IMG/VR virus record: IMGVR_UViG_3300022591_000010
Coordinates: 1-58,144 of that record
Length of the DNA stretch: 58,144 bases
Direction: 5' to 3' (one strand)
Source of the DNA: a virus
The notes beneath the pieces were generated by a model. That model did no database searches, was not told the origin of the DNA, and was given only the letters and a program-made list of their open reading frames with translations. The first letter of the stretch is position 1; each line of letters begins with the position of its first letter. This document shows positions 5,925-28,673 of the stretch, in pieces. Both the position numbers and the translations under genes were made by a program.

Positions 5925-5945
5925 CCCCTATTAAATATTGTACCA
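5925..5945 (-). promoter_or_regulatory. Repeated phage promoter box, copy 1
   Basis: The minus strand reads TGG-TACAAT then ATTTAATAGGGG: an extended -10 (TGnTANNNT) at 5937-5945 followed by a conserved initially transcribed segment. No convincing -35. It lies 18 bases upstream of ATG 5907. Confidence 0.7.
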
Positions 5946-5947
5946 CA

Positions 5948-7444
5948 CTATTCGTTGCCGGACTCTAGCTCTGGACGTCCTGCGGATTCATTAAATGCTT
6001 TACGACTACGTCCATAGGCAAGTTGTTCTCTAGGGGACATCTTTTTAACAGATTCTATCTCACGAAGTCTCGCTGCTGTAAGCGCCTCTACATTTGAAAT
6101 AGCAGTGCCTTGTTCCCCTACTTGCTTAGTAAGTCTTTCTTCAGCAAATTTTTCCAAAGGAGTTGCAGCTCTGGCGCCAGTAAACTCATCATTAACAATC
6201 ATATGAGCAGGAAGAGTTTGCTTAGCCCACTCCGCTTCAGAACCATAAGGGACAGACTCACGGGTAGCGGCTTCACTAGGAAGACTTTGTCCTACACGCT
6301 TAGGTCGTTCTGGCACAGGGCCGGAAGCATTTCTTACGTCAGGTGCATCATCTCCTTCAGCCCAACCAGGCCTACGCAAAACTCCCGCAGAGTTCTTACC
6401 TTTAAGACTAAAGCCACTATATGATGAGTAACCTTGAGGAGTTGGAGCATCCTTTGCTGCATTCTCTACTGTTCTGGTATAAATTGCAGAACAGATAGGG
6501 CAGTCTTTTAGATCTTTGCTAGCCCCTGGAGAGTGATAGGTCTCCATATGCTCATCATGCTCTTCTGGAGTAATATCGCTTGTTGACCTCAAATTTTCAA
6601 GAGCTCTATTAAGCAGGTCTTCTTGCTCTAAGTTGCTACGACGCTTTTTAACATCAAAAAGTGGCCCACGCAAAGACGCACCACGCCTACCCGCAGCTGG
6701 TCCGCCAGTTTCATGTCCCCACAAAACGTCTGCAGGTGGAAGTGTTACAGATCTAGGAGGTGTAGGTGAGTCTGATGAGCCTGGGAAATAATAACCGCCA
6801 GTCAATAAGCTGGACTCCATAGTACCGGTAGCGCTATCTTTCATTGCTTGAAGACGTGCTTTGTGCTTTTCTATATCTTGTGGCTTGATAGGATCAAATC
6901 TAATATCAGGATCTGCCTGGTGTTGTATCTGCTTTAGTTGCAAATGGTGCTTACAAAGAACATAGGGAGTTGTAGTAAATGGATTGTCTTTAGCACTAGA
7001 CATGAAGTGAGTTCCTTCAGAGCCACCAGGCCCATGCTGGTAAGAATTACCTGGAACATCACAAGTTAGCCCTAGTTTTCCTGGAATACTTTGACGTAGA
7101 TCTGTTAGGCCTGGACCAGAAGCAGTAAAGGAAGCAACTCCTCTAGGATCATTGTTACCCGGAAGAGTTGAGAGGATCTCCCCGCCATCTTCGTGCAAAT
7201 GCTCTGGGATACCTTCAGTAGTTACTCCTGGAGTAGTCTGATTATGACGGGCTACAATCCTATTTCCCGACTTAATTACTCTACGAGAAGATCTATCTGG
7301 AGCCGGCTTATCATAGCTAGGACTAAAACCTTCGGGAATACCAAAATCTTCTGAAGCGGAAGCATCAGAAGAAACCTCGACATTGCCATTAAAGGCATTG
7401 GAGGTTGCATAGATATCCTGAGAGGATACGTCTTTTTTAGCCAT
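5948..7444 (-). CDS. Large, mostly disordered hypothetical protein, 498 residues
   Basis: Not recognised. Composition is Pro/Gly/Ser/Glu-rich with few hydrophobic runs, so much of it is probably disordered. One structured element is visible: HMETYH near residue 300 followed about 16 residues later by CPIC, a His2Cys2 zinc site. It ends three bases after the repeated promoter box begins. It is followed and preceded by short genes of similar polar composition, suggesting a set of co-expressed accessory or virion-associated proteins (inference). Confidence 0.7.
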   Translation of the reverse strand: MAKKDVSSQDIYATSNAFNGNVEVSSDASASEDFGIPEGFSPSYDKPAPDRSSRRVIKSGNRIVARHNQTTPGVTTEGIPEHLHEDGGEILSTLPGNNDPRGVASFTASGPGLTDLRQSIPGKLGLTCDVPGNSYQHGPGGSEGTHFMSSAKDNPFTTTPYVLCKHHLQLKQIQHQADPDIRFDPIKPQDIEKHKARLQAMKDSATGTMESSLLTGGYYFPGSSDSPTPPRSVTLPPADVLWGHETGGPAAGRRGASLRGPLFDVKKRRSNLEQEDLLNRALENLRSTSDITPEEHDEHMETYHSPGASKDLKDCPICSAIYTRTVENAAKDAPTPQGYSSYSGFSLKGKNSAGVLRRPGWAEGDDAPDVRNASGPVPERPKRVGQSLPSEAATRESVPYGSEAEWAKQTLPAHMIVNDEFTGARAATPLEKFAEERLTKQVGEQGTAISNVEALTAARLREIESVKKMSPREQLAYGRSRKAFNESAGRPELESGNE

Positions 7445-7447
7445 GGG

Positions 7448-7678
7448 TTATTTACCCTTGTTCTTAGGCTTCTTACCGCTAATGTCGATCTCTTTGCCAG
7501 AAGCATCACGACGGATATTATTATTGTCTACTTCTTCATCTGAAGATGCATAATCTGGGTGGTCTTTAGGTAATGCAGCACGACGAGCCATATCTTGTTG
7601 AAGGCGTGTTTTAAACTCAGCAGCACGAGAGACAAATACGGGCTTGCGAGCACCTGAACGATCTGGTAGATCTGACAT
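7448..7678 (-). CDS. Small basic hypothetical protein, 76 residues
   Basis: Not recognised. N-terminal Arg-rich half (RSGARK, FKTRLQQDMARRA) then an acidic patch (SDEEVDNNN) and a Lys-rich tail ending KKPKNKGK. It abuts the 498-residue gene with three bases between and overlaps the stop of the upstream gene by one base, so it is a cassette member. No domain is visible. Confidence 0.65.
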   Translation of the reverse strand: MSDLPDRSGARKPVFVSRAAEFKTRLQQDMARRAALPKDHPDYASSDEEVDNNNIRRDASGKEIDISGKKPKNKGK

Positions 7679-8004
7679 TAGTATCCCTCCGGTGGGGTCT
7701 TACGTTCTCTAATTGCAAAGCCATTCATAATAGAGCTTACATTGCCCTCTTTAAATGTTTGAGGGGCAACACCTTGTGCATGGTGCTGATTAACAATATC
7801 CTGAGCATGAGGCAAATCTGATGCTCTTACAACCATATCTTGGTGCTCTGTAGATCCATGATCAAAATGGTCACTACGACCCATAGAGGCTTCGTCAAGG
7901 CCAAGATACCCACTAACTGCTTTACCGACTTTTTTAATGTCGTTAGCAGCACGTGAGTTCTTAATCTTGCCTATACGGCCTTTATGCCATGGGTCTTTAG
8001 CCAT
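7678..8004 (-). CDS. Hypothetical protein, 108 residues
   Basis: Not recognised. The start chosen is ATG 8004, two bases after the TAA of the upstream gene, rather than an upstream start at 8061 that would lie wholly inside it. The N-terminus is basic (KDPWHKGRIGKIK), followed by a helix with a His-rich patch (SDHFDHGSTEHQD). It stops in a one-base overlap with the next gene. Confidence 0.65.
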   Translation of the reverse strand: MAKDPWHKGRIGKIKNSRAANDIKKVGKAVSGYLGLDEASMGRSDHFDHGSTEHQDMVVRASDLPHAQDIVNQHHAQGVAPQTFKEGNVSSIMNGFAIRERKTPPEGY

Positions 8005-8005
8005 T

Positions 8006-8284
8006 TTAGTAGTTAGCACCCATCTGATCATTCTCAACATGCGCAACTGGTGTAGCTGCACGTGCCTTTGAAGCAGCTGAGCTAGCTCCTGGAGCTACCT
8101 TGCTTGGCGCCTCTTGATCAATAAAATCATAGTTCCAATATGGGTGAAGCGCACGACGGTTAGCCAACATGATGTCTTCGCCTGTACCTGGAGCTACAGT
8201 TGTGTTAGGACGTACCTTGCGATACTTTCCGTCAGTAGCGCCATCTTTCATGCTGTTGTTAAGAGACTTATTTTCTGTACGCAT
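8006..8284 (-). CDS. Hypothetical protein, 92 residues
   Basis: Not recognised. Polar, with NTTVAPGTGEDIMLANRRALHPYWNYDF in two short segments that look like the only ordered part, followed by an Ala/Ser-rich tail. It starts in a TAATG overlap with the upstream gene. Gene-tight packing supports it being real. Confidence 0.65.
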   Translation of the reverse strand: MRTENKSLNNSMKDGATDGKYRKVRPNTTVAPGTGEDIMLANRRALHPYWNYDFIDQEAPSKVAPGASSAASKARAATPVAHVENDQMGANY

Positions 8285-8565
8285 TAGTCATTGTCCTTTG
8301 TTAGTCTTGCGGGGTAAACTCCCTCGTAACCGCCCTTATCATTAATTGGCCAACCATGTTCATCTTCCCCTTTAAGCCGAACATGTCCACGTCCAAGGGC
8401 AACCGATTCACCGGTCCTCATATTTACTGAATCAACAGCCATTCTGTCAAATCCTGGATTAAGAGCTCGCATAGTTGCTTGATGACCAGCCATACCCATT
8501 TCAGTAGCCTTAAATGCTTTAGCTTTACGAGCAGCATGGTCTTCTCTACGAGGTAAGAACTTCAT
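8284..8565 (-). CDS. Hypothetical protein, 93 residues
   Basis: Not recognised. Begins with a basic segment (KFLPRREDHAARKAKAFK) and continues with polar sequence rich in Gly and charged residues (VALGRGHVRLKGEDEHG). Start and stop both overlap neighbours by one base (TAATG), typical of translational coupling. Confidence 0.65.
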   Translation of the reverse strand: MKFLPRREDHAARKAKAFKATEMGMAGHQATMRALNPGFDRMAVDSVNMRTGESVALGRGHVRLKGEDEHGWPINDKGGYEGVYPARLTKDND

Positions 8566-8729
8566 TATTTCTTCGCTTTCGTTTTAGGTGCTGGACTATG
8601 TTTAGATTTGGCTTTAGCCTCGATCTCTGCTTTACGTTCTGGAGTCATGACCTTAAGTTTTTCAACTTTATAGTCCATGTCCTTACCGTGTGGATCTTTG
8701 ACCTTGCTTTTAGCCTTATTAGTTGCCAT
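8565..8729 (-). CDS. 54-residue Lys-rich protein
   Basis: Short gene: about a third of the 54 residues are Lys or Arg, ending KTKAKK. ATG 8729 has AAGGAG nine bases upstream and the stop overlaps the next start (TAATG). It resembles in composition, not in clear sequence, the basic small proteins at 50436-51097. It may bind DNA or another acidic partner (inference). Confidence 0.65.
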   Translation of the reverse strand: MATNKAKSKVKDPHGKDMDYKVEKLKVMTPERKAEIEAKAKSKHSPAPKTKAKK

Positions 8730-8753
8730 GGTGTAAGTATCTCCTTAATTTTA

Positions 8754-8948
8754 CTATTTGTCAGGGTTATGATGTTTTTTAACCCTAGGGCGGCTGACTT
8801 TTTTGCCCCTAGCGTGGCTAGTTGCCTGGCGTCTTTTAGTACTAGCCGATTTGCTACCAGGATTGAGGCTAGAAGACTGTCCGCCTACCCAATGTCCGGC
8901 AGAAGCCTTAGACCAGCTAGCTACGGATGTAAATTGTTTACCTGTCAT
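8754..8948 (-). CDS. 64-residue basic protein
   Basis: Not recognised. N-terminal half contains Ser/Gly/Trp-rich SKASAGHWVGGQSSSLNPG; C-terminal half is very basic (KRRQATSHARGKKVSRPRVKKHH). Its ATG lies inside the 3' end of the zinc-ribbon gene (11-base overlap). Longer open frames on the opposite strand here lack ribosome sites and run against all neighbours. Confidence 0.6.
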   Translation of the reverse strand: MTGKQFTSVASWSKASAGHWVGGQSSSLNPGSKSASTKRRQATSHARGKKVSRPRVKKHHNPDK

Positions 8949-9114
8949 CTGCCATCAAGTTTCTGGCATGCTTTTCATACTTCTCATTGCGGCAGTATGG
9001 GCATAGTCCATCATCGCTGTACATAGCTTCTAGCGGAGTCATAGGGTACCCACACTTCTTACATGGCAAAGTACCATCATAGACAGTTAGAGTTGAAACA
9101 TCATCCATAGCCAT
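8938..9114 (-). CDS. 58-residue zinc-ribbon protein
   Basis: Short gene with CKKC (residues 18-21) and CPYC about 20 residues further on, a minimal zinc ribbon joined by MTPLEAMYSDDGL. The C-terminal tail is helical and charged. The start ATG 9114 follows the preceding stop as TAATATG; a second ATG two codons on is an alternative. Small zinc ribbons like this often mediate protein or nucleic acid contacts; no specific role is visible. Confidence 0.65.
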   Translation of the reverse strand: MAMDDVSTLTVYDGTLPCKKCGYPMTPLEAMYSDDGLCPYCRNEKYEKHARNLMADDR

Positions 9115-9115
9115 A

Positions 9116-9475
9116 TTACCACACCGATTCCGAAATGTTGCGAGCCGTTCCTTGATACGAGCCCTTTTCTCCTGTAAAGTCTACACGAGTTGGCTGGAAG
9201 GTTGAGTTGACGTCCATGACATCCTCAATACCTAGCTCACGACTACGATATCCGTAACGTGGAGGAAATAGTTGAATCTGAGGTAGTGGTGGGCGAACTA
9301 AGTCCGTAAGTAGAGCTGCTGGGATAGTTGCGGCTTTAAGAGCGCGAGCCATAAATGCCTCTTGAGCATTTGCAAATGGCCCCATAAAGTCATAGCGAAG
9401 TAGCGATGGATCCGGATCCTCATTAGTGATAGGACGGCCCTTACTATGATCATAGACTCCGTCTTGCTTATCCAT
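9116..9475 (-). CDS. Hypothetical protein, 119 residues
   Basis: Not recognised. Middle section has AQEAFMARALKAATIPAAL as a likely amphipathic helix followed by Pro-rich DLVRPPLPQIQLFPPRYGYRS in two pieces. ATG 9475 is chosen because AGGAG lies five bases upstream; a GTG at 9481 would sit on top of that ribosome site. It overlaps the upstream HTH gene by a few bases. Confidence 0.65.
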   Translation of the reverse strand: MDKQDGVYDHSKGRPITNEDPDPSLLRYDFMGPFANAQEAFMARALKAATIPAALLTDLVRPPLPQIQLFPPRYGYRSRELGIEDVMDVNSTFQPTRVDFTGEKGSYQGTARNISESVW

Positions 9476-9890
9476 TTTCACTCCTATGCATCTTGTCGTG
9501 AGCTAGAGCATCTTTAATAGGTACGTCAAGATTACACGAATCGCAATGCAGTGTTCCTACACCGTTAACGTAGTCATCTGATTTTATAGTAGGTGCATTA
9601 GTAACCGCGTTGTTGCCCTGTTGAGTCAATTTGTCTCTTAAAGCATGAATAGCATCTTTAGGATAGTACAGGTCATGGCGTAAGTTACCTTTAGAATCCG
9701 GTAGTCCCTTTTTTCTACGCTCTACAGGAATTCTTTCCACTCGTGTTAAAGAATGTACAGTATCTGGATGTAGCCCAAGAAGTTGTGCCACTTCTCTATG
9801 ATTATAGAAACCTTCATTTGATCGTGCTTGATCTAATGTAGGACGCTTGCCGGTTCTAGGACGGCCGCCTTTATTCTTAGGCTGGTCCAT
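9468..9890 (-). CDS. DNA-binding protein: AT-hook-like N-terminus, HTH and C-terminal zinc finger
   Basis: 140 residues. Starts with GGRPRTGKRP, an AT-hook-like segment (residues 8-17). REVAQLLGLHPDTVHSLTR (about 32-50) has the pattern of a MerR/excisionase-type helix-turn-helix, and YYPKDAIHALRDKL is the helix that usually follows. The C-terminus has CDSC then HDKMH (C-x2-C-x12-H-x4-H), a C2H2 zinc finger. Three DNA-binding elements in one small protein suggest a regulator or nucleoid-type protein of this accessory block. It overlaps both neighbours by about 10 bases. Confidence 0.7.
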   Translation of the reverse strand: MDQPKNKGGRPRTGKRPTLDQARSNEGFYNHREVAQLLGLHPDTVHSLTRVERIPVERRKKGLPDSKGNLRHDLYYPKDAIHALRDKLTQQGNNAVTNAPTIKSDDYVNGVGTLHCDSCNLDVPIKDALAHDKMHRSENG

Positions 9891-10107
9891 AGCGCTTCTT
9901 AAACTTATTCTCTAGCATACCCATCTTAAGATGTGTACTTAATCCCATTTTAGCTTCCATGCCTCGTGAGATAGCCTCATTACACCAAGCACAGGTGTCA
10001 CCGTGTCCAAAATCTTTATGAGATGCTTGTCCAGTCTTAACATACTCATCAAGATGTACTTGATCCCAATCAGGGTTGTCCGGTAAAAAGTTATGATCTT
10101 CTTGCAT
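9877..10107 (-). CDS. Small Cys/His protein, 76 residues
   Basis: HGDTCAWCNEAISRG then STHLKMG in the second half gives C-x2-C followed by histidines, a possible zinc site. Start ATG 10107 is two bases after the preceding stop, with GGTGG about ten bases upstream; a GTG four codons further up would overlap the previous gene. Role not recognised; it is the fourth small putative zinc protein in this block. Confidence 0.6.
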   Translation of the reverse strand: MQEDHNFLPDNPDWDQVHLDEYVKTGQASHKDFGHGDTCAWCNEAISRGMEAKMGLSTHLKMGMLENKFKKRYGPA

Positions 10108-10109
10108 GA

Positions 10110-10655: not shown

Positions 10656-10690
10656 GTAGTCTCCTTGGATAGTATCTGACTGCTGCCTAC

Positions 10691-10699
10691 AGTATACCC
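10691..10699 (-). promoter_or_regulatory. Promoter for the small zinc-protein block
   Basis: The minus strand reads GGG-TATACT-GTAGGC just past the terminator of the holin gene. A TATACT hexamer with a start site near 10684 gives a leader of about 29 bases carrying AAGGAG before ATG 10655. A GGG-TATTGT-AGG relative lies at 15110-15118. Confidence 0.55.
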
Positions 10700-10700
10700 T

Positions 10701-10735
10701 GAAAAGCAAAAAGCCGGGGGTGTATTCCCCCGGCT
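10701..10735 (-). terminator. Rho-independent terminator after the lysis cassette
   Basis: Stem AGCCGGGGG (10712-10720) pairs perfectly with CCCCCGGCT (10727-10735) around a six-base loop, and the minus strand continues TTTTTGCTTTTC. A near-perfect intrinsic terminator for the holin-like gene. Confidence 0.9.
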
Positions 10736-10750
10736 AATTACTTAGTTAAA

Positions 10751-10930
10751 TTACTTAGCAGCAGGCTTTGCCTTGTCAACTACGGCCTTAAGTACTGGGC
10801 CAAGAACACCTACGAGGGCTGCCCATGCAACCTTCTTAATGTCGTGGTTTCCGCCTTGGTAGATGGCTACGCCAGCGGCTGCAGTTGCATAGAGATAATG
10901 CTCTACGAGCACCTTTGTCTTTGAATTCAT
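10751..10930 (-). CDS. r1t-like holin, 59 residues
   Basis: Short membrane protein with two hydrophobic helices: HYLYATAAAGVAIY (about 10-23) and VAWAALVGVLGPVLKAVV (about 34-51), separated by a short polar GGNHDIKK turn and ending Lys-rich. This matches the layout of r1t-type holins of phages of Actinobacteria, which permeabilise the membrane for the endolysin. ATG 10930 has AAAAGGA upstream. It is flanked by the repeated promoter (10964-10984) upstream and a terminator downstream, so it can be expressed as a single-gene transcript. Confidence 0.65.
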   Translation of the reverse strand: MNSKTKVLVEHYLYATAAAGVAIYQGGNHDIKKVAWAALVGVLGPVLKAVVDKAKPAAK

Positions 10931-10963: not shown

Positions 10964-10984
10964 CCCCTATTAAATATTGTACCA
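10964..10984 (-). promoter_or_regulatory. Repeated phage promoter box, copy 2
   Basis: The minus strand reads TGG-TACAAT then ATTTAATAGGGGG, identical to copy 1 over 21 positions. The -10 is at 10976-10981. It stands directly upstream of the holin gene. Confidence 0.7.
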
Positions 10985-12555: not shown

Positions 12556-12556
12556 C

Positions 12557-12947: not shown

Positions 12948-14096
12948 CTATACGTTTGCGTGAATTTCCTGTCCACGGTACATGGTTTTACCCTTATGTA
13001 TATGCACCTGATCAAAGTGGAAGCTGTCGTCGTCCCCATCTTTAAAGAAGATAACGCTTACTCCTTGCTGCCAGTTCTCAAAATACTGTAGAGCTTGGCC
13101 TTTGACATCAACACCGCCCTTAACGGAAGGGACTGCACCGTCAACCCTGCAGAGGCATCCCGGGCTAAAAGAGACACTTTTAATGGCCTGGTCACGATCA
13201 AATACAGTCTTGGATTGCTGTTCCATGCGATGAGTATGACCAAATAACGTAGAGATATTTGGATTCGAATTCGCATATTGTGCAGCCGTTGAGCCAGAAG
13301 AGTTAGCACGATCGCCGTGCACAGCACGTAGGCGCTTATTAATCCAGTGTGCTCCAGCTGGGTAACCATCGATAAACTCCACTCCTAGTTCGTCACAGCG
13401 TAATAGATTCTGCAGGCTTAAAACCGGCCAAGAATCAGGCATGTTGGCTACTTTGAGGCCATATGCCGCAGCAGCATTAGTGTTAATAAAGCGATTGAGA
13501 CGCTTATCGTGATTTCCCTCAAGAAGAATGATGCGGGCATCTGCCCCACCGTTCGCCCTTTGTTCAGCAAGAAAACGATGGCCCCTATTAATAGCGAGCT
13601 GAGCAGTATGAGCAAAGTTAGACTCCTGTTCATATGTTCCAAACATAGGGAGATCTAGGAAGTCACCCAAGTTAATAATCTGGTCTAGTGGATGTCCGTG
13701 ATCTAAGCCTACGATCTGAAGCGCCACATCCATGGCAGCCTCATCATGGAATGGGTCTAGTGTGCCATCCTCATTCTTACGGTACCCAATTTGTGGATCT
13801 GGCAATGCGACAGCAACCTTCCAGCCACTGCTGATCAGAGCAGGGGTCGGGGTTGGTTTTGGATTAATGATTACTGGGTCTGCAGGCTGTACAGGCTGCC
13901 ACTTAGGACCTTCGCTCCACTTAGGAGAGAGGATAATCTTAGTGTCGTCCGGGTTATTAGAAAGACTTACCTTACTAATCTTGCCTACGTCTTCAGGTGT
14001 AAGGCCATTAGCTTTTAGCAGCTTATCGATAGAGCTTAAGCCACTGCTGGCAGAAATTTCTGACTTGGCGGTATTGTAGTTTTCTTCTAGTGACAT
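12948..14096 (-). CDS. Calcineurin-like metallophosphoesterase
   Basis: 382 residues. The first ~95 residues are a polar, Pro-rich region. The catalytic domain carries the family motifs in order: DPQIG (D-x-Q in place of D-x-H), NLGDFLD, EGNHD, AVHGD and FGHTH, giving the two-metal centre. Substrate unknown; phage relatives may act on nucleic acids or cyclic nucleotides. The usual first-motif His is Gln. ATG 14096 is preferred over GTG 14102; both overlap the upstream gene's end. A strong hairpin follows the gene. Confidence 0.85.
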   Translation of the reverse strand: MSLEENYNTAKSEISASSGLSSIDKLLKANGLTPEDVGKISKVSLSNNPDDTKIILSPKWSEGPKWQPVQPADPVIINPKPTPTPALISSGWKVAVALPDPQIGYRKNEDGTLDPFHDEAAMDVALQIVGLDHGHPLDQIINLGDFLDLPMFGTYEQESNFAHTAQLAINRGHRFLAEQRANGGADARIILLEGNHDKRLNRFINTNAAAAYGLKVANMPDSWPVLSLQNLLRCDELGVEFIDGYPAGAHWINKRLRAVHGDRANSSGSTAAQYANSNPNISTLFGHTHRMEQQSKTVFDRDQAIKSVSFSPGCLCRVDGAVPSVKGGVDVKGQALQYFENWQQGVSVIFFKDGDDDSFHFDQVHIHKGKTMYRGQEIHANV

Positions 14097-14326
14097 GTGC
14101 ACGTCCCGTTTCTATGCTCTCTTAGAGAGGTTAGTCCGAATGTTGCTCCTGCTGCTTTATAAATATCAAATAGACTTCGTGTAGAGAAGTCGTCATCATC
14201 TAAAGATGTTTTAAATGCGGCTAAATCTTTTTCATTGAGTGAGGTAGACCATGCGCCTACGACACACATCCCAGCCACAAAGGGATTCTTTTCTTTTGCT
14301 TCTGAATACAAATCTTCTAAACTCAT
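14087..14326 (-). CDS. Small hypothetical protein, possibly HTH DNA-binding, 79 residues
   Basis: The sequence starts SLEDLYSEAKEK and ends SLFDIYKAAGATFGLTSLREHRNG. The second part has the rhythm of a helix-turn-helix with a basic recognition end (REHR), as in small proteins found before phosphoesterase genes in phages of Actinobacteria. This is weak evidence. ATG 14326 has AAGGAGG seven bases upstream and is the first gene after promoter copy 3. Confidence 0.6.
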   Translation of the reverse strand: MSLEDLYSEAKEKNPFVAGMCVVGAWSTSLNEKDLAAFKTSLDDDDFSTRSLFDIYKAAGATFGLTSLREHRNGTCTCH

Positions 14327-14343
14327 TGCGCCTCCTTGTTTAC

Positions 14344-14371
14344 TTAATAGGGGTTTTTAGGCCCCTATTAA
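14344..14371 (-). repeat. Inverted repeat formed by the promoter's downstream box
   Basis: TTAATAGGGG (14344-14353) and CCCCTATTAA (14362-14371) are perfect 10-base inverted copies around TTTTTAGG. The second arm is the conserved start of promoter copy 3, so the 5' end of the transcript would fold into a 10-bp hairpin just before the AAGGAGG ribosome site. Confidence 0.7.
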
Positions 14372-14382
14372 ATAGTTTACCA
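14362..14382 (-). promoter_or_regulatory. Repeated phage promoter box, copy 3
   Basis: The minus strand reads TGG-TAAACT then ATTTAATAGGGG; the -10 is at 14374-14379. Same spacing as the other copies. Drives the 79-residue gene and the phosphoesterase. Confidence 0.68.
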
Positions 14383-16618: not shown

Positions 16619-17471
16619 AACGCTTACATCCTTTCATTGGATCTATATTACATACTGGTGGACGGTTATTTTCTGCGGCCCAAGCTACATCACGCGCCTT
16701 CTCAAACAGCTCTGCGGTGTACTCTGGGTTGTACTTTACAACGAACTCTTTATATTCTTGGTTGGCCTTAAGCTCATAGAGAAATACAATCTCCTCAGGA
16801 GCAGTATTTAGTAGGCCTTCCTCCACCATTAGATGGCAAAGGTGTAGGTAGATTTGGCCCTGGAGCTGGTGAGATCTAAGAGGTGTGCGGATGTTCTTCC
16901 AGACTACATCGATATCGTTATTGTATTGAGCCATAAGAGCCGGCATCTCCATACGAATAGTGCCTGTGCCAATAGACTTAATCTCAATGAGGCAATCATC
17001 ACCCAGACCCTTGATCCAGCCATCAGCATGCCCGCGCATCATATGCTTGTCGCTACGTAGAGGGACCTCTGCATACTCAATAACATTCTTAATACCTGCT
17101 AGGTCTTTAGAGGTAGCCCAGGTGTAGTCATTAGTCTTTGGGCTGTACCACTTACCGTACAAGACGCCCATATCTTTAAACCACTTCTGCCACTTAGCGT
17201 GGATAGTGTGGCCCTCAGCAAAGATAGATGCTAGACGTAGTGTAGGCTTGTCTCTAGTCTCTACATAGTTTCCTTTAAGCGCATGATACTGAGCCAGAGC
17301 ACACCACTCTGGCTTGATAATATCTGAGGGATGTATGTAAGACTGATCTCGCTCATCAAACGGCTGTGCAAGTACATGGCGCTCTAAAGCACCAAGCAAC
17401 CGGCTATCACGCTTATTACTGTTTAGAAACGCCTTTAGATCTTTGCTCGGTATTGTCGTCGGCTTTCCCAT
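16599..17471 (-). CDS. Cas4/RecB-like iron-sulphur exonuclease
   Basis: 290 residues, PD-(D/E)XK fold: MMRGHADGWI (Asp), CLIEIKSIG (Glu-x-Lys) and a Q-rich SHQLQGQIYLHL helix (motif IV, Q-x3-Y type). One Cys near residue 57 (PEWCALAQY) plus three C-terminal Cys (CNIDPMKGCKRC) make the Cas4/AddB-type 4Fe-4S cluster. No cas genes are nearby, so it acts in phage recombination or DNA end processing, with recA and the resolvases. It overlaps the WhiB gene by 56 bases. Confidence 0.85.
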   Translation of the reverse strand: MGKPTTIPSKDLKAFLNSNKRDSRLLGALERHVLAQPFDERDQSYIHPSDIIKPEWCALAQYHALKGNYVETRDKPTLRLASIFAEGHTIHAKWQKWFKDMGVLYGKWYSPKTNDYTWATSKDLAGIKNVIEYAEVPLRSDKHMMRGHADGWIKGLGDDCLIEIKSIGTGTIRMEMPALMAQYNNDIDVVWKNIRTPLRSHQLQGQIYLHLCHLMVEEGLLNTAPEEIVFLYELKANQEYKEFVVKYNPEYTAELFEKARDVAWAAENNRPPVCNIDPMKGCKRCEPFQH

Positions 17472-17787
17472 ATTTGCCCTCCAGCTCTAACCATTCATCC
17501 AATGTCAAACCTTGTTTGCGCATCTTACGTTCGGCTGCGTTACGCTCTCTGTGGGACAACCCCCCAAAGATTCCGTGCATCTCCTCGTTAATCAACGCTT
17601 CTTTAAGGCATTCTTTACGTACAGGGCAAGGTGGTCTACCATCTTTACCCCAACATATTGCCTTAGCATTATCCGCAATAGGTTTGTACAAGGCTTTGTC
17701 TCTGGGTGGAAAGAACATCTCTGTATCTTCTCCCTGACACTTGGCTTCGTATCTCCAAGCCCATGGCGGGTCGTATTTAGTAGGCAC
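17416..17787 (-). CDS. WhiB-family Fe-S regulator with enlarged Cys loop
   Basis: 123 residues. Cys17, Cys45, Cys54 and Cys60 are the cluster ligands and GIFGGLSHRERNAAERK is the G[VI]WGG turn with the basic DNA-contacting helix. Canonical WhiB spacing is C-x2-C-x5-C; here the middle pair is C-x8-C because of a GKDGRPP insertion. WhiB proteins bind sigma factor region 4 and redirect host transcription, and are confined to Actinobacteria and their phages. GTG 17787 overlaps the upstream stop (TAGTG). The 3' end overlaps the Cas4-like gene. Confidence 0.88.
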   Translation of the reverse strand: MPTKYDPPWAWRYEAKCQGEDTEMFFPPRDKALYKPIADNAKAICWGKDGRPPCPVRKECLKEALINEEMHGIFGGLSHRERNAAERKMRKQGLTLDEWLELEGKYGKADDNTEQRSKGVSKQ

Positions 17788-22760: not shown

Positions 22761-23229
22761 TAACTTCTTGATCGTGAATCTTCTTCCAAGAATCTACCAA
22801 CTCAATGGACAGATCCGGATGACGATTCCAATCTATTCGTGGAGCGTCTATAAGCCCTCGAGCTTCAAACGCAGCCACTGTAGCCTCAACAATTGCTCTG
22901 CTGTACATCCGCCAACCTGGCTTCTTTACACCATCTACAATTGGTGACTTTAGTCTGTAAGGCGCACGTGGAATGTATCCTTTGCGCTCCCATAGACGGA
23001 TAGTCACTAGAGGTCTACCTAGTGCAAGAGCAAAATCCCCTGCACTAAATAATTGTACCACATTTCCGTTAGGTAATGTTTTCACCTGAGGCTTTGAATC
23101 CCAGGCTCCCTCTTCTTTTACTTTAGGTTTCTTAGCCTCAGGATTCAGAGGACGACGCTTCTTCTTAGAACCAGGGTAGTACTCGTCTAGTTCTGATAGA
23201 AGGCGATCTACTGGATCCAGCTCGTTCAT
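22756..23229 (-). CDS. MerR/excisionase-like HTH DNA-binding protein
   Basis: 157 residues. LFSAGDFALALGRPLVTIRLWERKGYIPRA (about 60-89) has the MerR-type winged-HTH form, and GWRMYSRAIVEATVAAFE is the usual helix after the wing. The N-terminus is charged and Lys-rich. It probably regulates transcription of the replication region; the AGGTCGAT repeats just downstream are a plausible target (inference). Overlaps the next gene by 4 bases. Confidence 0.75.
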   Translation of the reverse strand: MNELDPVDRLLSELDEYYPGSKKKRRPLNPEAKKPKVKEEGAWDSKPQVKTLPNGNVVQLFSAGDFALALGRPLVTIRLWERKGYIPRAPYRLKSPIVDGVKKPGWRMYSRAIVEATVAAFEARGLIDAPRIDWNRHPDLSIELVDSWKKIHDQEVN

Positions 23230-23663
23230 GACTTGCTAGGAATGAAGGCGTAGGAAACGGATTTAGGAAACATCGAGTCGATCTCCTCTTCTGTAAGAAG
23301 ACTCTCGTATAGGCAAGCCATTACCTCTGCCTCGTCTAGGATAGGGACAAGCTTGTAGCAACGGTCTGTAAGACCCTTTTGCTTTAGTATGGCACGAGCA
23401 GTATCCTCGTCAAGACGCTGGGATACTCTGCGCTGGCGTTGTAGAGATTGGTAGCCATCTACTTCTTCTGGAAGTGAATACCAGATATGGCCCTTGTCAT
23501 CTGCAGTACCCTCTTTATCAACAAGCTCTGAAAGCTCAGACTTAAGTAGAGACTGTTCTTTGGTAAGGTCATCGATACGACCTCGTAGTGAAACATACTT
23601 GCGGACTTTACTTACGATTGAGTCGCCCTCTTTAGGCGTCTCTCTTTGAATAACTTTTGGCAT
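23226..23663 (-). CDS. Hypothetical coiled-coil protein, 145 residues
   Basis: N-terminal region has a coiled-coil segment (KYVSLRGRIDDLTKEQSLLKSELSELVDK in two turns, about 24-52), then GHIWYSLPEEV and mixed alpha/beta. Similar small proteins lie next to SSB and HTH genes in other phages of Actinobacteria, function unknown. The ATG 23663 lies about nine bases after a GGGGGG run that is part of promoter copy 4 and could double as its ribosome-binding site. Confidence 0.68.
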   Translation of the reverse strand: MPKVIQRETPKEGDSIVSKVRKYVSLRGRIDDLTKEQSLLKSELSELVDKEGTADDKGHIWYSLPEEVDGYQSLQRQRRVSQRLDEDTARAILKQKGLTDRCYKLVPILDEAEVMACLYESLLTEEEIDSMFPKSVSYAFIPSKS

Positions 23664-23673: not shown

Positions 23674-23694
23674 CCCCTATTAAATATAGTACCA
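23674..23694 (-). promoter_or_regulatory. Repeated phage promoter box, copy 4
   Basis: The minus strand reads TGG-TACTAT then ATTTAATAGGGGGG. The -10 is at 23686-23691, with TTGCAA 17 bases upstream as a weak -35. The RNA leader is only about 16 bases. Confidence 0.68.
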
Positions 23695-23699: not shown

Positions 23700-23858
23700 T
23701 TAGGAGTCTTGCAAACCGTCCTTTACGTACTCCTTTAGGGCAACGATGATGACATCGGTGACTGTACGTCCATCGATCTGAGCCTTGTCCTTGACAGCAG
23801 TCCATAGCTCATCTGATACCCGGATGGTGCGGGTTGGGGTCTTAGGTGCGTTTGGCAT
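23700..23858 (-). CDS. Ribbon-helix-helix (CopG/Arc-type) DNA-binding protein, 52 residues
   Basis: Short gene. TRTIRVSDELWTAVKDKAQ (8-26) is the strand plus first helix of a ribbon-helix-helix fold, and GRTVTDVIIVALKEYV is the second helix. Such proteins dimerise to repress promoters. A TATATA hexamer ends six bases before the ATG (23865-23870), so the message may be leaderless. It lies directly upstream of promoter copy 4, which is a natural target (inference). Not among longer reading frames, hence easily missed. Confidence 0.8.
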   Translation of the reverse strand: MPNAPKTPTRTIRVSDELWTAVKDKAQIDGRTVTDVIIVALKEYVKDGLQDS

Positions 23859-23864
23859 AGTAGA

Positions 23865-23873: not shown

Positions 23874-25454
23874 GACCATAGTCTGTTGTAAAAATGCCTT
23901 AAGACTGCCCAAATTTAATTCAACTCCTCCGGCATCATTTATGCCTTCACCATCCATGATCGCATCAGCTACTGAGTTTTTCTGCAACAACATGTCGTGC
24001 TGGCGCTCTTCAATAGAGCCTTCCATTAAGAAGTCTTGGATGACGATCGACGGCCATGTACTAGACGCACGACGGATCCGACCGTTACGTTGTAGAGCCA
24101 AGCCAGCGTTCCAAGGAAGATCGTAATTAATGAGAAGATTAGCTTGAGGAAGATCGACACCGTAACCTCCAGCATCAGAAGAAATAAGGACCCTACAATC
24201 TGCATTAGTTTGAAAAGTAATCTTAGCGGCTTCTTTGTCTTTTGCATTCATTTCTCCTGTGTACATTTGCGGTGAATATTCTTCTAAAATCCTATGTAAA
24301 ATCTTAACCATATGAACGTAGCTGGTGAAGATAACAACCTTATTCTTATCATAGCTATCTAAGAAGTCACTGACATACCTCTGAAGAGCATCAGCTTTAG
24401 GGTGAGCCTTCAATGACTCAAGCTTTCCTGACTCCTCTAGATCGTTGACATACTTAGAGCCATTATCCCCATCGTTCTTGTATCTACTAGAAGAGTTAAA
24501 GAGCAGTTCCGGCCCGTCACACAGCATTCTTAATGCTGTTAGTTTGGACATTATCTTGCCCTTCAAAGCATTAGCTGCCTCGTTCTGGTTCTCCCCAGAG
24601 TAGTGGGAGAAGAGGTCAAACGAAGAGCCGTAACTATCTATGGCATTGTCTAGATCCTCTAAGATTTCCCCGGCAATATGGTTGTAGAGCTTTACACCGG
24701 CCCTATCAAAGGGAACCCTGATAGGTTCTGCAAAGATAGTGTCCGGTAGGTAAGGGGCTACATCGGGATCCTGCTGGCGTTTACGCACACTTACTGTAGA
24801 CATAGCTGAGTTAAGGGTAGGCAGGTTACGGTAGCGCTCTACGCCCCCAAAGTGGTTGCGTACTATAAAGGTTTTATCAAAGAGATCAAAGCGACCAAGA
24901 ACCTTTGGGTCTACAAACTGCATGATGGAGTACAGCTCTTCCGGTTTACCATTCTCAATAGGAGTTCCGGTGAGAGCATACTTGACAGGGCTAGTAAGCT
25001 TCTTTACATGCTTAGATCGTTTTGATCTAAAGCTTTTTATTGCGGTTGCTTCGTCGCAGACGATGAACCCTCTTGAGAGCTTTGATACTTGCTCCCAGTC
25101 GTTAACAACTTGCTCATAGTTAATGATGACATAATCGACGAGCGAATGGCCCCAATCCAGGGCCTCTTCATATTGCGCTTGGCGTTGTTTTGGTGTTCCA
25201 TCAATGACCAAAGGGTTTGAAGTGCCATCGGTAAACTTCCTAATCTGCTCTGACCACTGATACTTTAATGATGATAAGCAGATAATGATACCAGGCTCAG
25301 TTATTTTTCCTATGCTTTTCAGCTCTTCAAGTGCGGCAATAGTAAGAACAGTTTTGCCCAGGCCAAGGTCGTAGGCCACCAGCATCTTCTTACGAGATAC
25401 CATGGCTTCTACGGCCTCGACCTGATAAGGTAAAAGTGTTCCTGTAAATGACAT
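23871..25454 (-). CDS. SNF2-type DEAD/DEAH helicase
   Basis: 527 residues. Motifs I (DLGLGKT, 29-35), II (DEAT, 134-137), III (ALTGTP) and VI (RNGRIRR with QRNG) in order, plus the SNF2 QYEE/YQVEAVEAM N-terminus and a C-terminal helicase lobe with DLPWNAG. It would remodel or translocate on DNA or displace bound proteins. It stands between the ribbon-helix-helix gene and a membrane protein and overlaps the latter by one base. Confidence 0.88.
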   Translation of the reverse strand: MSFTGTLLPYQVEAVEAMVSRKKMLVAYDLGLGKTVLTIAALEELKSIGKITEPGIIICLSSLKYQWSEQIRKFTDGTSNPLVIDGTPKQRQAQYEEALDWGHSLVDYVIINYEQVVNDWEQVSKLSRGFIVCDEATAIKSFRSKRSKHVKKLTSPVKYALTGTPIENGKPEELYSIMQFVDPKVLGRFDLFDKTFIVRNHFGGVERYRNLPTLNSAMSTVSVRKRQQDPDVAPYLPDTIFAEPIRVPFDRAGVKLYNHIAGEILEDLDNAIDSYGSSFDLFSHYSGENQNEAANALKGKIMSKLTALRMLCDGPELLFNSSSRYKNDGDNGSKYVNDLEESGKLESLKAHPKADALQRYVSDFLDSYDKNKVVIFTSYVHMVKILHRILEEYSPQMYTGEMNAKDKEAAKITFQTNADCRVLISSDAGGYGVDLPQANLLINYDLPWNAGLALQRNGRIRRASSTWPSIVIQDFLMEGSIEERQHDMLLQKNSVADAIMDGEGINDAGGVELNLGSLKAFLQQTMV

Positions 25455-25663
25455 TACTCAGCCTTTGTCCAACTTCTATGGTTCTTTACGTACACAGTCA
25501 TGTAGGCTATTGACCCCAAGTAAAACCCATACTGCTTAGTCTGCGTGGCGTAGATAAGCCACAGAGTCTCATTAAAAAACAAGACCACCCAGCCCAGCTT
25601 ATTCTTGGTGCCTACAATATATGTCCCTGTGATCCCACAAAGAGCTAGTACCCAAGACCACAT
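25454..25663 (-). CDS. Small multi-pass membrane protein (PnuC-like fragment), 69 residues
   Basis: Two to three hydrophobic helices: WSWVLALCGITGTYIVG, GWVVLFFNETLWLIYA, and GFYLGSIAYMTVYV. The pattern of aromatic-rich helices resembles half of a PnuC-type nicotinamide-riboside transporter and similar small phage membrane proteins. At 69 residues it could not be a whole transporter. Coupled by one-base overlaps to helicase and dNMP kinase. Confidence 0.6.
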   Translation of the reverse strand: MWSWVLALCGITGTYIVGTKNKLGWVVLFFNETLWLIYATQTKQYGFYLGSIAYMTVYVKNHRSWTKAE

Positions 25664-26208
25664 TATACGTACTGCATCAATCTAGTCTTAACAGCAAACT
25701 CTAGATCTTCTAGAGAGGTGTTGTTGTGGATGTAGGCGTCAAACTCCCAGTTATCTAGGTCATGCTCTGACACATGGTCGTTGACCGCATCGATGCCGAT
25801 ACGCTCTACTCTCCAGATTACACCGGAGAAAACAGACTTGATCCAGTCAGCCTCATTCTGAAAGCGGACATCGGTAATAACATAATTCTTATCTCTATCT
25901 AAGAACTTTGTTGCTTCTACAACCCAGTGGTTATCCCCGAATACTTTGCGGGCACCTACGCCTAAGTCTTGAAGTAGACGGCGAACTTCCGGCTCCTGCT
26001 TAGCAGCATCCCATCCATAGGTATCGACTGCGTATCTCAAATCATAGCCTCCGCCATCCAAATCAAAATTAACAACTGGGCTCATCTCATAGAGCAGGTC
26101 TTTAATCTTGTCTGCAAAGGCGATGCGTTCAAAGCCATGGTTCTCTACTAAAAACTTAGCTACAGTATCTTTACCTGACTGTGCGTATCCTGATAGTCCA
26201 ATAATCAT
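25663..26208 (-). CDS. Deoxynucleoside monophosphate kinase
   Basis: 181 residues. P-loop GYAQSGKDT (7-15), a helix with GFERIAFADKIKDLL, and VITDVRFQNEAD (nucleoside-binding/LID region) match phage dNMP kinases of the T4 gp1 type. It phosphorylates dNMPs to dNDPs, supplying DNA synthesis and working with the ribonucleotide reductase. Start ATG overlaps the preceding stop (ATGA). Confidence 0.88.
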   Translation of the reverse strand: MIIGLSGYAQSGKDTVAKFLVENHGFERIAFADKIKDLLYEMSPVVNFDLDGGGYDLRYAVDTYGWDAAKQEPEVRRLLQDLGVGARKVFGDNHWVVEATKFLDRDKNYVITDVRFQNEADWIKSVFSGVIWRVERIGIDAVNDHVSEHDLDNWEFDAYIHNNTSLEDLEFAVKTRLMQYV

Positions 26209-26363
26209 TTTGATTCCTTTTCTAAAACGTATTTTTCACATTCTTCACAACGGTACCCCTTGATACCTGTTTCTGAGTCTACCCAATCTGGAGTATAAAA
26301 CCTATGACCAGCAACGCCGTACCAACCAATAGGCTTCATATTTGAGAAGGAATCGGTAATCAT
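26205..26363 (-). CDS. 52-residue protein with C-terminal CxxC
   Basis: Short gene. Aromatic-rich N-terminal half (GWYGVAGHRFYTPDW) and CEEC near residues 39-42, possibly a half zinc site. Start and stop both lie in ATGA overlaps with its neighbours, so it is translationally coupled between an exported/membrane gene and dNMP kinase. Function not recognised. Confidence 0.6.
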   Translation of the reverse strand: MITDSFSNMKPIGWYGVAGHRFYTPDWVDSETGIKGYRCEECEKYVLEKESK

Positions 26364-26629
26364 TTATTCCCCTTGTAATATGGATTAGGTGCGGTCTTGT
26401 CGCAAATCGTTCGTGTATCGAATATCCAATGATAACTGTATTTTCCATCAGGACCTAATCCATAGCCGTAATGGGAGTGGTCAACTGTATGGGACTTCAC
26501 GCAAATAAGAGGCTCTTTAGCCCGTTGCCAGTGGTCAATTCCCACTGCTGCTTTGAAGATTAAATAGCCTAAGGCTGGGACTGCTATTACAGCAATCCCA
26601 GCGATTAGTGCCTTGAGTTTAGAACTCAC
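26360..26629 (-). CDS. Membrane-anchored or exported protein, 89 residues
   Basis: N-terminal signal-anchor (LKALIAGIAVIAVPALGYLIFKAAV, in two parts about 5-29), then a polar domain with two Cys (CVKSH, TICDK) that could form a disulphide outside the cell, ending KGNK. It is five bases from the SPFH gene and may act with it at the membrane (inference). Confidence 0.65.
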   Translation of the reverse strand: MSSKLKALIAGIAVIAVPALGYLIFKAAVGIDHWQRAKEPLICVKSHTVDHSHYGYGLGPDGKYSYHWIFDTRTICDKTAPNPYYKGNK

Positions 26630-26634
26630 TTAAA

Positions 26635-27543
26635 TTACTTACCGTTGACAATCACGGAACTAGTAGCAGAAGAGCAAGGGTTGGTGTACACAGGCACGCC
26701 CTTATCAATTCCCTTAGAAATTACCTGTTGCCATACCTGCATACAGACAGATTGCAACTCAGAGGCAGTCATACCTGCTGCTGCAGAAGCGGCTGTCTTA
26801 AGACCCTGTGCTTCAATCAAACGACGTTGCGCTTCGATTGTTGCAGTCTTTGTTGCCTCTTGAGCAATACGGGTAGCCTGTTGTTGGCTTGCATACAGCG
26901 AGATTGTAGAAGCAGTAGCAGCGTCAGGTTCTACTGAGCGCATGCTTACAGTGTCTACGGTAATTCCGTAAGGAATCAACTGTTTGTTGAGTTGGATACG
27001 AATATCCTCTGCAACCTTGTCACGGTTAGAAATAGCGTCCAAGTTACCCGTTACTGAGTAAATCTGACCTACAGCCTGACGAAGGTTAGGAAGAACGATG
27101 TTATCGCTAATCGCATTCAAGTCTCCTGTGCGAGACTGGTAGTAAAGTTTTTCAGCGTCTTGCTTTTCTACACGCCAACGAGCCGCAATTTCTACGGACA
27201 TCTGTCCAGCATCTGCAGTACGAGCGATTACCTTTTCGTTGCCTGTTAGTTGAACTGTGAGAGGACGAATGGGGTATTCCTCAACGTTTGTCCAAGGCGC
27301 AACAAAGTGAATGCCGTTATCTAGCGGCTTACCAACGTGCCCAAAAGACACAGGTACGCCTACTTGCGTGGCCTGTACGACCGTGAAACTGCTAAAAAAC
27401 AATCCAATGATTCCAATTACCAATGCACCCAAAGAGACTCCAGTCCCAATGGCTTTAAGGTCGGTGTCGGTTGATTTGCGTGAGTAAGGAAGACCAATTA
27501 GGCCGCCCAAGATAAGTAGAACAAGAATAATTGCCATTACCAT
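26635..27543 (-). CDS. SPFH/Band 7 (stomatin/prohibitin-like) membrane protein
   Basis: 302 residues. Two N-terminal hydrophobic stretches (about 2-20 and 34-53) followed by a Band 7 domain: TQVGVPVSFG, GIHFVAPWTNVEEYPIR, and YGITVDTVSMRSVEP. The C-terminal coiled region has many Ala/Gln/Glu (EATKTATIEAQRRLIEAQG). SPFH proteins organise membrane microdomains and can stabilise membranes or regulate proteases. GGAG lies nine bases before ATG 27543. Phage Band 7 proteins are known but their role is unsettled. Confidence 0.88.
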   Translation of the reverse strand: MVMAIILVLLILGGLIGLPYSRKSTDTDLKAIGTGVSLGALVIGIIGLFFSSFTVVQATQVGVPVSFGHVGKPLDNGIHFVAPWTNVEEYPIRPLTVQLTGNEKVIARTADAGQMSVEIAARWRVEKQDAEKLYYQSRTGDLNAISDNIVLPNLRQAVGQIYSVTGNLDAISNRDKVAEDIRIQLNKQLIPYGITVDTVSMRSVEPDAATASTISLYASQQQATRIAQEATKTATIEAQRRLIEAQGLKTAASAAAGMTASELQSVCMQVWQQVISKGIDKGVPVYTNPCSSATSSVIVNGK

Positions 27544-27630
27544 TTGTATTCTCCGATTTAGTTAGTGTACGGGTGGTGGTTCAGTGAAACTGTATACACA
27601 TAAAACAAGTTACGCAAGTTTAATCTTTTT

Positions 27631-27647
27631 GATTAAGGCTGAAAAGA
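27631..27647. repeat. Small inverted repeat in the SPFH leader
   Basis: TTAATC-TTTTT-GATTAA, a 6-base stem with 5-base loop about 90 bases upstream of the SPFH gene start. Too weak to be a sure terminator. The 161-base gap otherwise has no gene with a normal start codon. Confidence 0.35.
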
Positions 27648-27704
27648 AAAATAATTCCAGCAAGTACTAACAGGAATACTCCTATGTTTATCGTAATAAT
27701 TTTA

Positions 27705-28673
27705 TTACCCCTTAATAGCGGACTCTCCGAATACGGAATGTTTTGACCCCCCTATACAATAGTGTACCAAATCTTCTGGCATATCGCCAATATCTTTGAA
27801 TTCACTATCCTGATAGTTTAGGAACCAACATTCCATACCTTCTTTACGGGTACGGCTGAGAAGATCTACCGCTGCTTTATTACCGGCAGCATCGTTATCC
27901 ATAGCAATGATCAGCTTGTCCGCCTGCTTCATAAGCTGAACCTGCTCGTTACTTACAGAAGCTCCAAAGGTTGAGACGCCTCCTGCAATTCCCAATGATC
28001 CTAGGCGTACGGCATCCAAAGGAGACTCTACTACGATCATAGTTCCTCCCTTGAATACATCTAGACCAAACAAAGTCTTTGACTTAGCTACGCCGGTAGG
28101 ACGATTGCGGAACAATCGCTGAGTCTGACTCTTCTCCTGCCAGCCCATAAGCTTGTGAGATTGTGGGCTACGGATAGGTGTGATCCAGGAGTTGGTTGCA
28201 GGGTTCCACTTAACCCCATAGAGTACACAGCCATCCTCGTTCAACCCTCTAGCAGATAAAGCCCACTCAGGAGGAAGTGCGTCGAAAATCGACAGACGTG
28301 CTTCGCTCATACCTACGGGAGCTGGGATAGGTACGTAGGATGTACGAGCCTCTTCCAACTGACGAGCAAGATATTCGAAGTTAACCTCGATGTTATTTCT
28401 AAGCCACTCTTTGGCAGCATCGAAGTCAATGATTCCCCACTGAGTAGTGAACTCTTTAAGTTCAGCAACTAAGGTTAGAAGTGTTCCTTTGTAGCCACAA
28501 GAGAAGCAATGATGAACTCCAGTCTCAGCATTCATAGACCACGAAGGGTTGTTGTCTTGCTGACCGGTACGCTCTAAGTGCATAGGGCATAGACCAAGAA
28601 GCTCGTCGCCTCTTTGGTTTGTTTCAATACCCAGCGTAAGCAGCACGCCTTCTACTGAACCCTCTGAATACAT
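27705..28673 (-). CDS. dnaG: DnaG-like DNA primase (CHC2 zinc finger plus TOPRIM)
   Basis: 322 residues. Zinc finger ligands Cys29, His32, Cys56 and Cys59 (CPMH, CFSC) open the protein; the TOPRIM domain has VVESPLDAVR and AMDNDAAGNKA with the acidic metal-binding residues. There is no C-terminal helicase-binding domain, so interaction with DnaB must be through another region. It primes lagging-strand synthesis. One-base overlap with the upstream gene. Confidence 0.92.
   Translation of the reverse strand: MYSEGSVEGVLLTLGIETNQRGDELLGLCPMHLERTGQQDNNPSWSMNAETGVHHCFSCGYKGTLLTLVAELKEFTTQWGIIDFDAAKEWLRNNIEVNFEYLARQLEEARTSYVPIPAPVGMSEARLSIFDALPPEWALSARGLNEDGCVLYGVKWNPATNSWITPIRSPQSHKLMGWQEKSQTQRLFRNRPTGVAKSKTLFGLDVFKGGTMIVVESPLDAVRLGSLGIAGGVSTFGASVSNEQVQLMKQADKLIIAMDNDAAGNKAAVDLLSRTRKEGMECWFLNYQDSEFKDIGDMPEDLVHYCIGGSKHSVFGESAIKG
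27749..27769 (-). promoter_or_regulatory. Repeated phage promoter box, copy 5
   Basis: The minus strand reads TGG-TACACT then ATTGTATAGGGGGG; the -10 is at 27761-27766. It lies inside the 3' end of the primase gene and would drive the SPFH gene with a leader of about 210 bases. Confidence 0.55.

Follow-up and report, generated by a model that had tools for sequence, protein, structure and literature searches.

Repeated, putatively sigma-A-type promoters with a shared discriminator at non-structural genes of an uncultured phage

The question addressed here is which polymerase or factor reads a 21-bp motif, TGGTANNNT-ATTTAATAGGGG, that is repeated on the minus strand of IMG/VR virus record IMGVR_UViG_3300022591_000010, and where transcription from it would begin. 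The window, which is the whole stretch of DNA that was analysed, is the entire linear record of 58,144 bases (genome G000) and is probably a fragment. The original prediction had taken the copies for promoters with a conserved transcribed box, read by a phage-modified polymerase with WhiB proteins as candidates or serving as an early-RNA signal. Position, strand, conservation at orthologous genes and copies that precede tRNA genes in two relatives support the promoter part of this proposal. Overall, we consider it likely that the copies are host sigma-A-type promoters of non-structural genes with a start at motif position A17, in which the box consists of a discriminator followed by AGGGG.

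All five predicted minus-strand copies were found exactly at the coordinates given beforehand, and the TGG extension was present at each. The copies at 5925 and 10964 had 0 differences from TGGTACAATATTTAATAGGGG, the copy at 23674 had 1, the copy at 14362 had 2 and the copy at 27749 had 3. A relaxed copy that had been placed at 32553-32577 was present and was refined to 32556-32576, and a second relaxed copy was added at 32833-32853, each with 5 differences. In 50 order-1 Markov simulations covering both strands, the counts per genome were none for three or fewer differences, 0.02 for 4 and 0.12 for 5. A matrix scan of the window produced 9 matches above 14 bits compared to 0.2 in 5 order-3 simulations; the matrix was trained on the same sites, so the match count is partly circular and the placement of the matches is not. 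The repeated motif in the window is real. The copies and their targets are as follows, with presumed start positions.

5925-5945, minus strand: promoter copy 1, with TGG extension, TACAAT -10 (5937-5942), ATTTAAT discriminator (5930-5936) and presumed start at A 5929
5323-5907, minus strand: gene g5, target of copy 1, with a 22-nt leader, orthologous promoters in relatives and no convincing -35
10964-10984, minus strand: promoter copy 2, with TACAAT -10, ATTTAAT discriminator and presumed start at A 10968
10751-10930, minus strand: gene g10, target of copy 2, with a 38-nt leader, a predicted leader hairpin near +1 and no convincing -35
14362-14382, minus strand: promoter copy 3, with TAAACT -10, ATTTAAT discriminator and presumed start at A 14366
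14087-14326, minus strand: gene g14 (phrog_1738), target of copy 3, with a 40-nt leader
23674-23694, minus strand: promoter copy 4, with TACTAT -10, ATTTAAT discriminator and presumed start at A 23678
23226-23663, minus strand: gene g23, target of copy 4, with a 15-nt leader in which GGGGGG probably also serves as Shine-Dalgarno sequence
27749-27769, minus strand: promoter copy 5, with TACACT -10, ATTGTAT discriminator and presumed start at A 27753, located in the final codons of the primase gene (27705-28673)
32556-32576, minus strand: relaxed promoter of gene g31 (31644-32549), with TAGAAT -10 and a start near 32560
32833-32853, minus strand: relaxed promoter of gene g32 (32571-32837), with a -10 of TACAGT that lies 7 nt ahead of the ATG at 32837, probably leaderless

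The DNA polymerase of the window had 225 related stretches in viral contigs, from which 80 loci in records of up to 104 kb were kept. The nearest named relatives were the Streptomyces phages BRock, GiJojo, Alone3, LuckySocke and pSt2308 with approximately 39% polymerase identity. The window phage encodes a contractile tail (sheath and baseplate genes), and it probably infects freshwater actinobacteria, as do its relatives, because these phages carry whiB.

The motif pattern with at most 3 mismatches was present in 7 of the 14 relatives examined, with 0 in the reversed control. The window-clade matrix produced matches above 14 bits in six related genomes (9 in G000, 11 in G001, 7 each in G002 and G003, 6 each in G013 and G014), where order-3 simulations (5 each) produced 0.2-1.0. 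Outside those six, the same matrix showed 0 matches in G006 and 1 each in G009 and G010 against simulated values of 0.4, 0.6 and 0. Placement was assigned with our own simple gene-calling script, by which 31 of 44 matches in the six genomes were intergenic (8.1% of positions), 12 were sense coding and 1 was antisense coding, giving densities per 100 kb of 45.4, 3.1 and 0.26, respectively. The equal density in coding or shuffled sequence that was to count against the motif therefore did not occur in the matrix scan of the six genomes or in the order-3 simulations. The copy at 27749 is not upstream of the primase gene but within its 3' end. In 25 of 49 matches above 12 bits, the start falls 10-33 nt after a same-strand stop codon.

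The motif sits before orthologous genes in relatives whose flanks differ. The tRNA-associated promoters were located approximately 40 nt before tRNA-Asn (G001, 17194) and approximately 225 nt before a tRNA cluster (G002, 34022). In the window, strong sites were confined to the non-structural half, and no box was seen by eye upstream of the 12 structural genes examined and their orthologs found by tblastn. Across 257 Gb of bacterial genomes, 5 occurrences of the exact motif were found, with approximately 7 expected by chance according to our own arithmetic. Since there were only these 5 exact matches, the motif is not a widespread host promoter, and a host promoter class was rejected; none of the 5 was in a record titled as an actinobacterium, and a host-side variant of the motif was not searched for.

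The start site was approached through g32. Its upstream region carried TANNNT at 6-8 nt before the ATG in 21 of 22 distinct sequences (the exception was locus L036), and a Shine-Dalgarno-like tetramer was present in just one of the 22. In these orthologous-promoter analyses, -10 positions were sought within distance ranges set gene by gene, and the g32 analysis was repeated without a range. The g32 mRNA is thus probably leaderless, and as the -10-to-ATG spacing in the window is 7, the start would be motif position A17. Most of the box would then be an untranscribed discriminator (ATTTAAT) with only AGGGG transcribed, so the earlier placement of the conserved part downstream of the start was mostly wrong.

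The -35 elements differed between genes. TTGACA at 17 bp was found in 19 of the 22 distinct g32 upstreams, and for g31, 21 of 23 distinct upstreams had TTGCCA with an 18-bp spacer. For g23, TTGC at 17 bp was found in 27 of 44, with 16 more in which the register of the scorer was one base off, and for g14, TTG at 17-18 bp was found in 28 of 32; g5 showed no consistent -35 (TTG in 2 of 11). The scoring set the best of four spacings against the mean of single offsets, which is not a matched control, and reliance was therefore placed on the constancy of hexamer and spacing. In the window, the -35 elements of g31 and g23 fall within the end of the preceding coding sequence.

32592-32597, minus strand: -35 of the g31 promoter, TTGCCA, with an 18-bp spacer
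23709-23714, minus strand: -35 of copy 4, TTGCAA, with a 17-bp spacer, within the 3' end of the Arc-like gene 23700-23858

Among 25 tabulated window-clade sites, which were compiled from earlier scans, partly pre-selected by pattern and taken without the relaxed and coding copies, positions 4, 5, 9, 11, 12, 16 and 17 were invariant (T4, A5 and T9 being those of TANNNT), and position 6 carried 0.12 bit. The anatomy, location and conservation of these promoters are direct observations. Judged by its sequence, the anatomy is the build of a sigma-A promoter: a TANNNT -10 that is often extended, accompanied in several orthologous sets by a -35 at a distance of 17-18 bp. Of the features of SigA-type promoters, the TANNNT -10 was found, as was a -35 at 16-19 bp or an extended -10, and leaderless g32 points to a probable purine start 6-8 nt after the -10. 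We infer that host RNA polymerase would recognise these promoters through the -10, mostly TGG-extended, whether or not a -35 is present. Transcription would begin at A17, leaving ATTTAAT untranscribed and AGGGG as the first five transcribed bases, and the targets would be genes for replication, metabolism and other non-structural functions, as well as the tRNA genes mentioned above.

The discriminators of different genes were alike within a genome and different between clades. Five orthologous promoters (g5, g14, g23, g31 and g32), anchored on the -10, were compared in 19 representative contigs with less than 60% upstream identity to each other, and genomes were shuffled within each gene in permutations that ignore phylogeny. 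When different genes of the same genome were compared, agreement over the six bases that follow the -10 was 0.564 compared to 0.400 when permuted (z 9.2, n = 125 pairs), and the control from 20 to 5 bases upstream of the -10 showed z 1.15. The value was z 7.1 without the hairpin promoter and z 7.5 without the leaderless promoter. In a run with 17 representatives, z was 9.25 for the discriminator, 4.8 for the variable -10 bases, 4.0 for the 8 bases that follow the discriminator and 0.85 beyond these; over all 20 upstream bases, extended -10 included, it was 4.2. With the A/T versus G/C class held fixed, identity was still significant over the 19 representatives (z 6.0) and over one window-clade genome together with the 13 representatives outside the window clade (z 3.1, p 0.004). 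An exact-sequence dialect of the discriminator is therefore well supported in the window clade and only partly elsewhere.

Such coherence points to a trans-acting constraint on the discriminator, which may be a preference of the host polymerase at the open complex, through sigma region 1.2 and core contacts, or a phage factor. The second possibility is that a phage protein (an activator, a repressor or a polymerase-binding factor) reads the discriminator and start and co-evolves with them into clade dialects, and the host enzyme may still initiate; we regard this as possible, though unlikely. It draws on the coherence across non-orthologous promoters, which is strongest at the discriminator and also appears in the 13 representatives outside the window clade (z 4.5 with an upstream control of 0.27; z 3.7 without the hairpin promoter and 3.5 without the leaderless promoter). 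Beyond the A/T versus G/C class, however, these 13 alone gave z 1.6 and p 0.06, which is not significant. Genome-specific matrices found sites beyond their training in G006 (10 matches, 5 from training, against 0 in the reversed genome) and G005 (5 matches, 4 from training, against 0). The corresponding matches in native and reversed genomes were 10 and 6 for G010, 3 and 1 for G011, and 30 and 16 for G008, but G009 (69 and 58) and G007 (120 and 125) were little or no better than the reversed genome.

No reader was found among the candidates. The Arc-like protein carries PTRTIRV, which we take to be its DNA-reading strand, and this strand is almost unchanged (small exceptions are, for example, in loci L008 and L077) across clades with different discriminators, which makes it an unlikely reader of the dialects. 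The helix-turn-helix protein HTH17 was rejected as it was found only in G000, G004, G013 and G014.

23700-23858, minus strand: Arc-like ribbon-helix-helix protein (phrog_6506)

A bolder form, in which the dialect of each lineage is read in trans between the -10 and the start by a phage factor acting via the host sigma-A enzyme and co-evolving with its whole set of promoters together, in the manner of a phage polymerase, appears doubtful.

The discriminator of copy 3 also takes part in an inverted repeat.

14341-14374, minus strand: inverted repeat with a 5' arm formed by the copy 3 discriminator and AGGGG, and a 3' arm in the leader

Compared from the -10 onward, the 60 g14 upstreams comprised 34 distinct sequences, some of them nearly identical, and all 34 had an inverted repeat of 9-18 bp, the outer end of which lay from 5 bases before to 7 bases after the first discriminator base. 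Pairing of the discriminator was full in 23 of the 34 and involved 5 of its 6 bases in 5 sequences, and 4, 3 and 2 bases in 2 sequences each. Over 21 distinct types, pairing between the discriminator and the leader arm was 0.833 in native sequences versus 0.462 with arms swapped (maximum of 2000 permutations 0.651), and pairing of the transcribed arm was 0.994 versus 0.561; the stem was picked by best pairing, which favours the native value. A transcript started at A17 would carry the inner stem only, and a transcript from upstream would carry all of the stem. The likeliest reason for the paired discriminator would be an RNA structure that read-through transcripts form directly behind the upstream stop codon, for termination, processing or a 3' end, with the promoter built into it.

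The same repeat bears on the explanation that the boxes are half-sites of a repressor operator, similar to stoperators, with the promoter incidental, as the box at 14362 forms an inverted repeat of itself. The loop length of the hairpin varies among relatives, though, and its arms change with compensation. Moreover, at no more than one mismatch in the six genomes, the box without a -10 recurred only as the 3' arm of the hairpin and at one coding site common to G000 and G013, and an operator is improbable.

A constant inverted repeat was present only at the g14 promoter. Over 35 promoters, an average of 3.0 of the first five transcribed bases were paired compared to 2.0 in shuffled sequence, and a 5'-terminal hairpin at every copy was rejected. 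What survives of the early-RNA signal is that a subset of transcripts would begin with a hairpin at +1, but this is not general across copies. The transcribed part may also open a leader hairpin at 14362 and perhaps at a few other copies. No Rfam match was found in the window at gathering thresholds. Alike leaders with a hairpin from +1 and a second predicted hairpin over the Shine-Dalgarno sequence were observed at G006 89332, G010 67469 and G009 19335. A -10-like hexamer within a long inverted repeat, which recalls the g14 arrangement, was seen in Alone3 (L187) near 30750 before recA, and the same layout was seen in BRock (L186) near 37230 before a gene annotated as hypothetical at the corresponding place; no common box was seen by eye at these two corresponding genes. 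Next to the small g14 gene, the stretch 12948-14102 strongly matched a metallo-phosphoesterase family of phages (phrog_20266, 5.8e-99).

For the enzyme itself, the searches gave no sign of a phage polymerase. Sigma70_r2 was absent in 11 of 11 genomes in a search of sigma region 2 alone, the control of which responded in 10 of 14. Pfam and PHROG scans of large proteins, made in overlapping batches of 6, 10, 10 and 10 that did not cover every protein, showed no RNA polymerase. With neither a sigma factor nor a phage RNA polymerase found in these searches, there is no need to invoke a phage-modified polymerase, and together with the conserved -35/-10 pairs the searches leave that part of the original prediction without support. 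Several points weigh against host sigma-A-type promoters. A discriminator this uniform is not predicted by a plain sigma-A promoter; the window copies at 5925, 10964 and 14362 are without a good -35, so that sigma-A support there comes from the extended -10 alone; and the proteomes were not exhaustively annotated, so that a divergent phage factor could have escaped.

The WhiB proteins proposed as candidates were present, with 2-3 genes in each of the 11 genomes and two in the window, but nothing links them to the box.

17416-17787, minus strand: WhiB protein A, candidate regulator
28855-29109, minus strand: WhiB protein B, candidate regulator

The binding of WhiB proteins to sigma region 4 gives no reason to expect conservation from the -10 to the start. 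By analogy with AsiA of phage T4, phage WhiB on sigma region 4 might appropriate sigma so that phage promoters lean on the extended -10. The number of WhiB genes and the three copies without a good -35 would suit this, but -35 hexamers were kept at g31, g32 and g23 across relatives and WhiB binding alone would not account for the conserved stretch down to the start, and we hold it to be quite improbable. A T7-type single-subunit RNA polymerase promoter, which the 21-bp length and the GGGG run near the start resemble, is very improbable in view of the TANNNT and -35 pattern, which suits sigma-A, and of the large proteins scanned; PF00940 was also found in none of 14 relatives in a search whose control was silent, and the window itself is probably a fragment. 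Finally, a ribosome-binding signal with GGGG as Shine-Dalgarno sequence would fit the G-run just before the ATG at 23674 and 32556 (leaders of 15 and 11 nt), but as a general account it is refuted by the copies at 5925 and 14362, which are followed by a separate AGGAGG, and it has next to no probability given the copies that precede tRNA genes.

The copy at 27749 was compared in 16 distinct primase sequences with at least 70% identity. Among 214 conserved degenerate columns, 16 used a single codon, and four consecutive ones are TTG GTA CAC TAT, which spells the extended -10; its leucine is the sole single-codon one of 25 leucine columns. The bases that follow drift (TGT ATA, TGC TTA and TCC TTA), and the hexamer is absent in distant relatives. 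The called gene begins 42 nt after the presumed start in 4 of the 6 genomes, 56 nt after it in G002 and 210 nt after it in the window. The copy shows synonymous constraint on its codons, and we are moderately sure that it would be a functional promoter with a relaxed box.

The closest known system is the ESAS promoters of Cluster K mycobacteriophages. SAS and ESAS repeats are described in the non-structural genome half of these phages, together with subcluster-specific inverted repeats (PMC3203893), and ESAS contain putative SigA-like -35/-10 hexamers at 17-18 bp, with an unclear role (PMC11373665). The likeness lies in an actinophage motif that is repeated only at non-structural genes, with SigA-like hexamers at 17-18 bp and a clade-varying consensus; a clade-specific consensus at non-structural promoters was found here within the limits of the matrix and base-class tests. 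ESAS are, however, defined by inverted repeats and lie upstream of the SAS 13-mer, whereas the window promoters share the discriminator and first bases instead. An inverted repeat was not found at each copy, and the SAS 13-mer GGGATAGGAGCCC, which would be expected before the start codon, had 0 matches in the window when up to 2 mismatches were allowed.

PeSL cassettes of T4-type phages are mobile, occur in many places and consist of a promoter followed by a stem-loop. Copy 3 is likewise directly followed by a stem-loop, but the constant stem-loop here precedes a single orthologous gene, and it shares bases with the discriminator. T4 middle (AsiA/MotA) and T7-type promoters are similar as phage classes with an extended -10 or a conserved start sequence; they differ in that -35 elements are kept here in several orthologous sets and that no T7-type polymerase was found in the proteins tested. 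Freshwater actinophages have been recognised by their whiB genes, and a sigma-70 factor is additionally reported in two cultured Nanopelagicales phages (PMC10202952, PMC6802176), in contrast to the 11 genomes here, where sigma region 2 was not found. A partial literature search found no publication on this motif, and no claim of its being unpublished is made.

Overall, the promoter is ordinary in kind, and what is unusual is the coherence of the discriminator and the overlapping inverted repeat. For uncultured phages whose hosts are probably freshwater actinobacteria, the sites provide a promoter map that can be tested, and they suggest that selection can act in concert on the discriminators of several promoters in the same phage. 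Should the discriminator be read by a phage factor, this would be an unusual way to mark a promoter class on the host polymerase; should it be shaped by host preference, the boxes may be of use in assigning uncultured phages to their hosts. The promoter overlapped by an inverted repeat and the promoter within primase codons are concrete cases of overlapping information.

In addition, one doubtful match and its neighbouring gene were recorded.

2005-2025, minus strand: weak, doubtful match, located at the 3' end of the queuine gene (1992-3467) and upstream of the class II ribonucleotide reductase gene listed next
1950 (approximately) to 1, minus strand: class II ribonucleotide reductase gene, which runs off the contig end and is 85% identical to that of G002

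Gene g31 itself, which has weak helix-turn-helix and DnaD-like matches, contains an inverted repeat in its coding sequence (32204-32236) with 14 perfect pairs and a loop of 3. Hairpins with different arms were present at fitting positions in G001, G002, G006, G009 and G010, and the repeat is a candidate replication origin inside an initiator gene. Finally, the leader of the tail-sheath gene (49233-49265) has a stretch like AACCTAAC..TAAGGAG that was found in many of the listed relatives and may be a late-gene signal.

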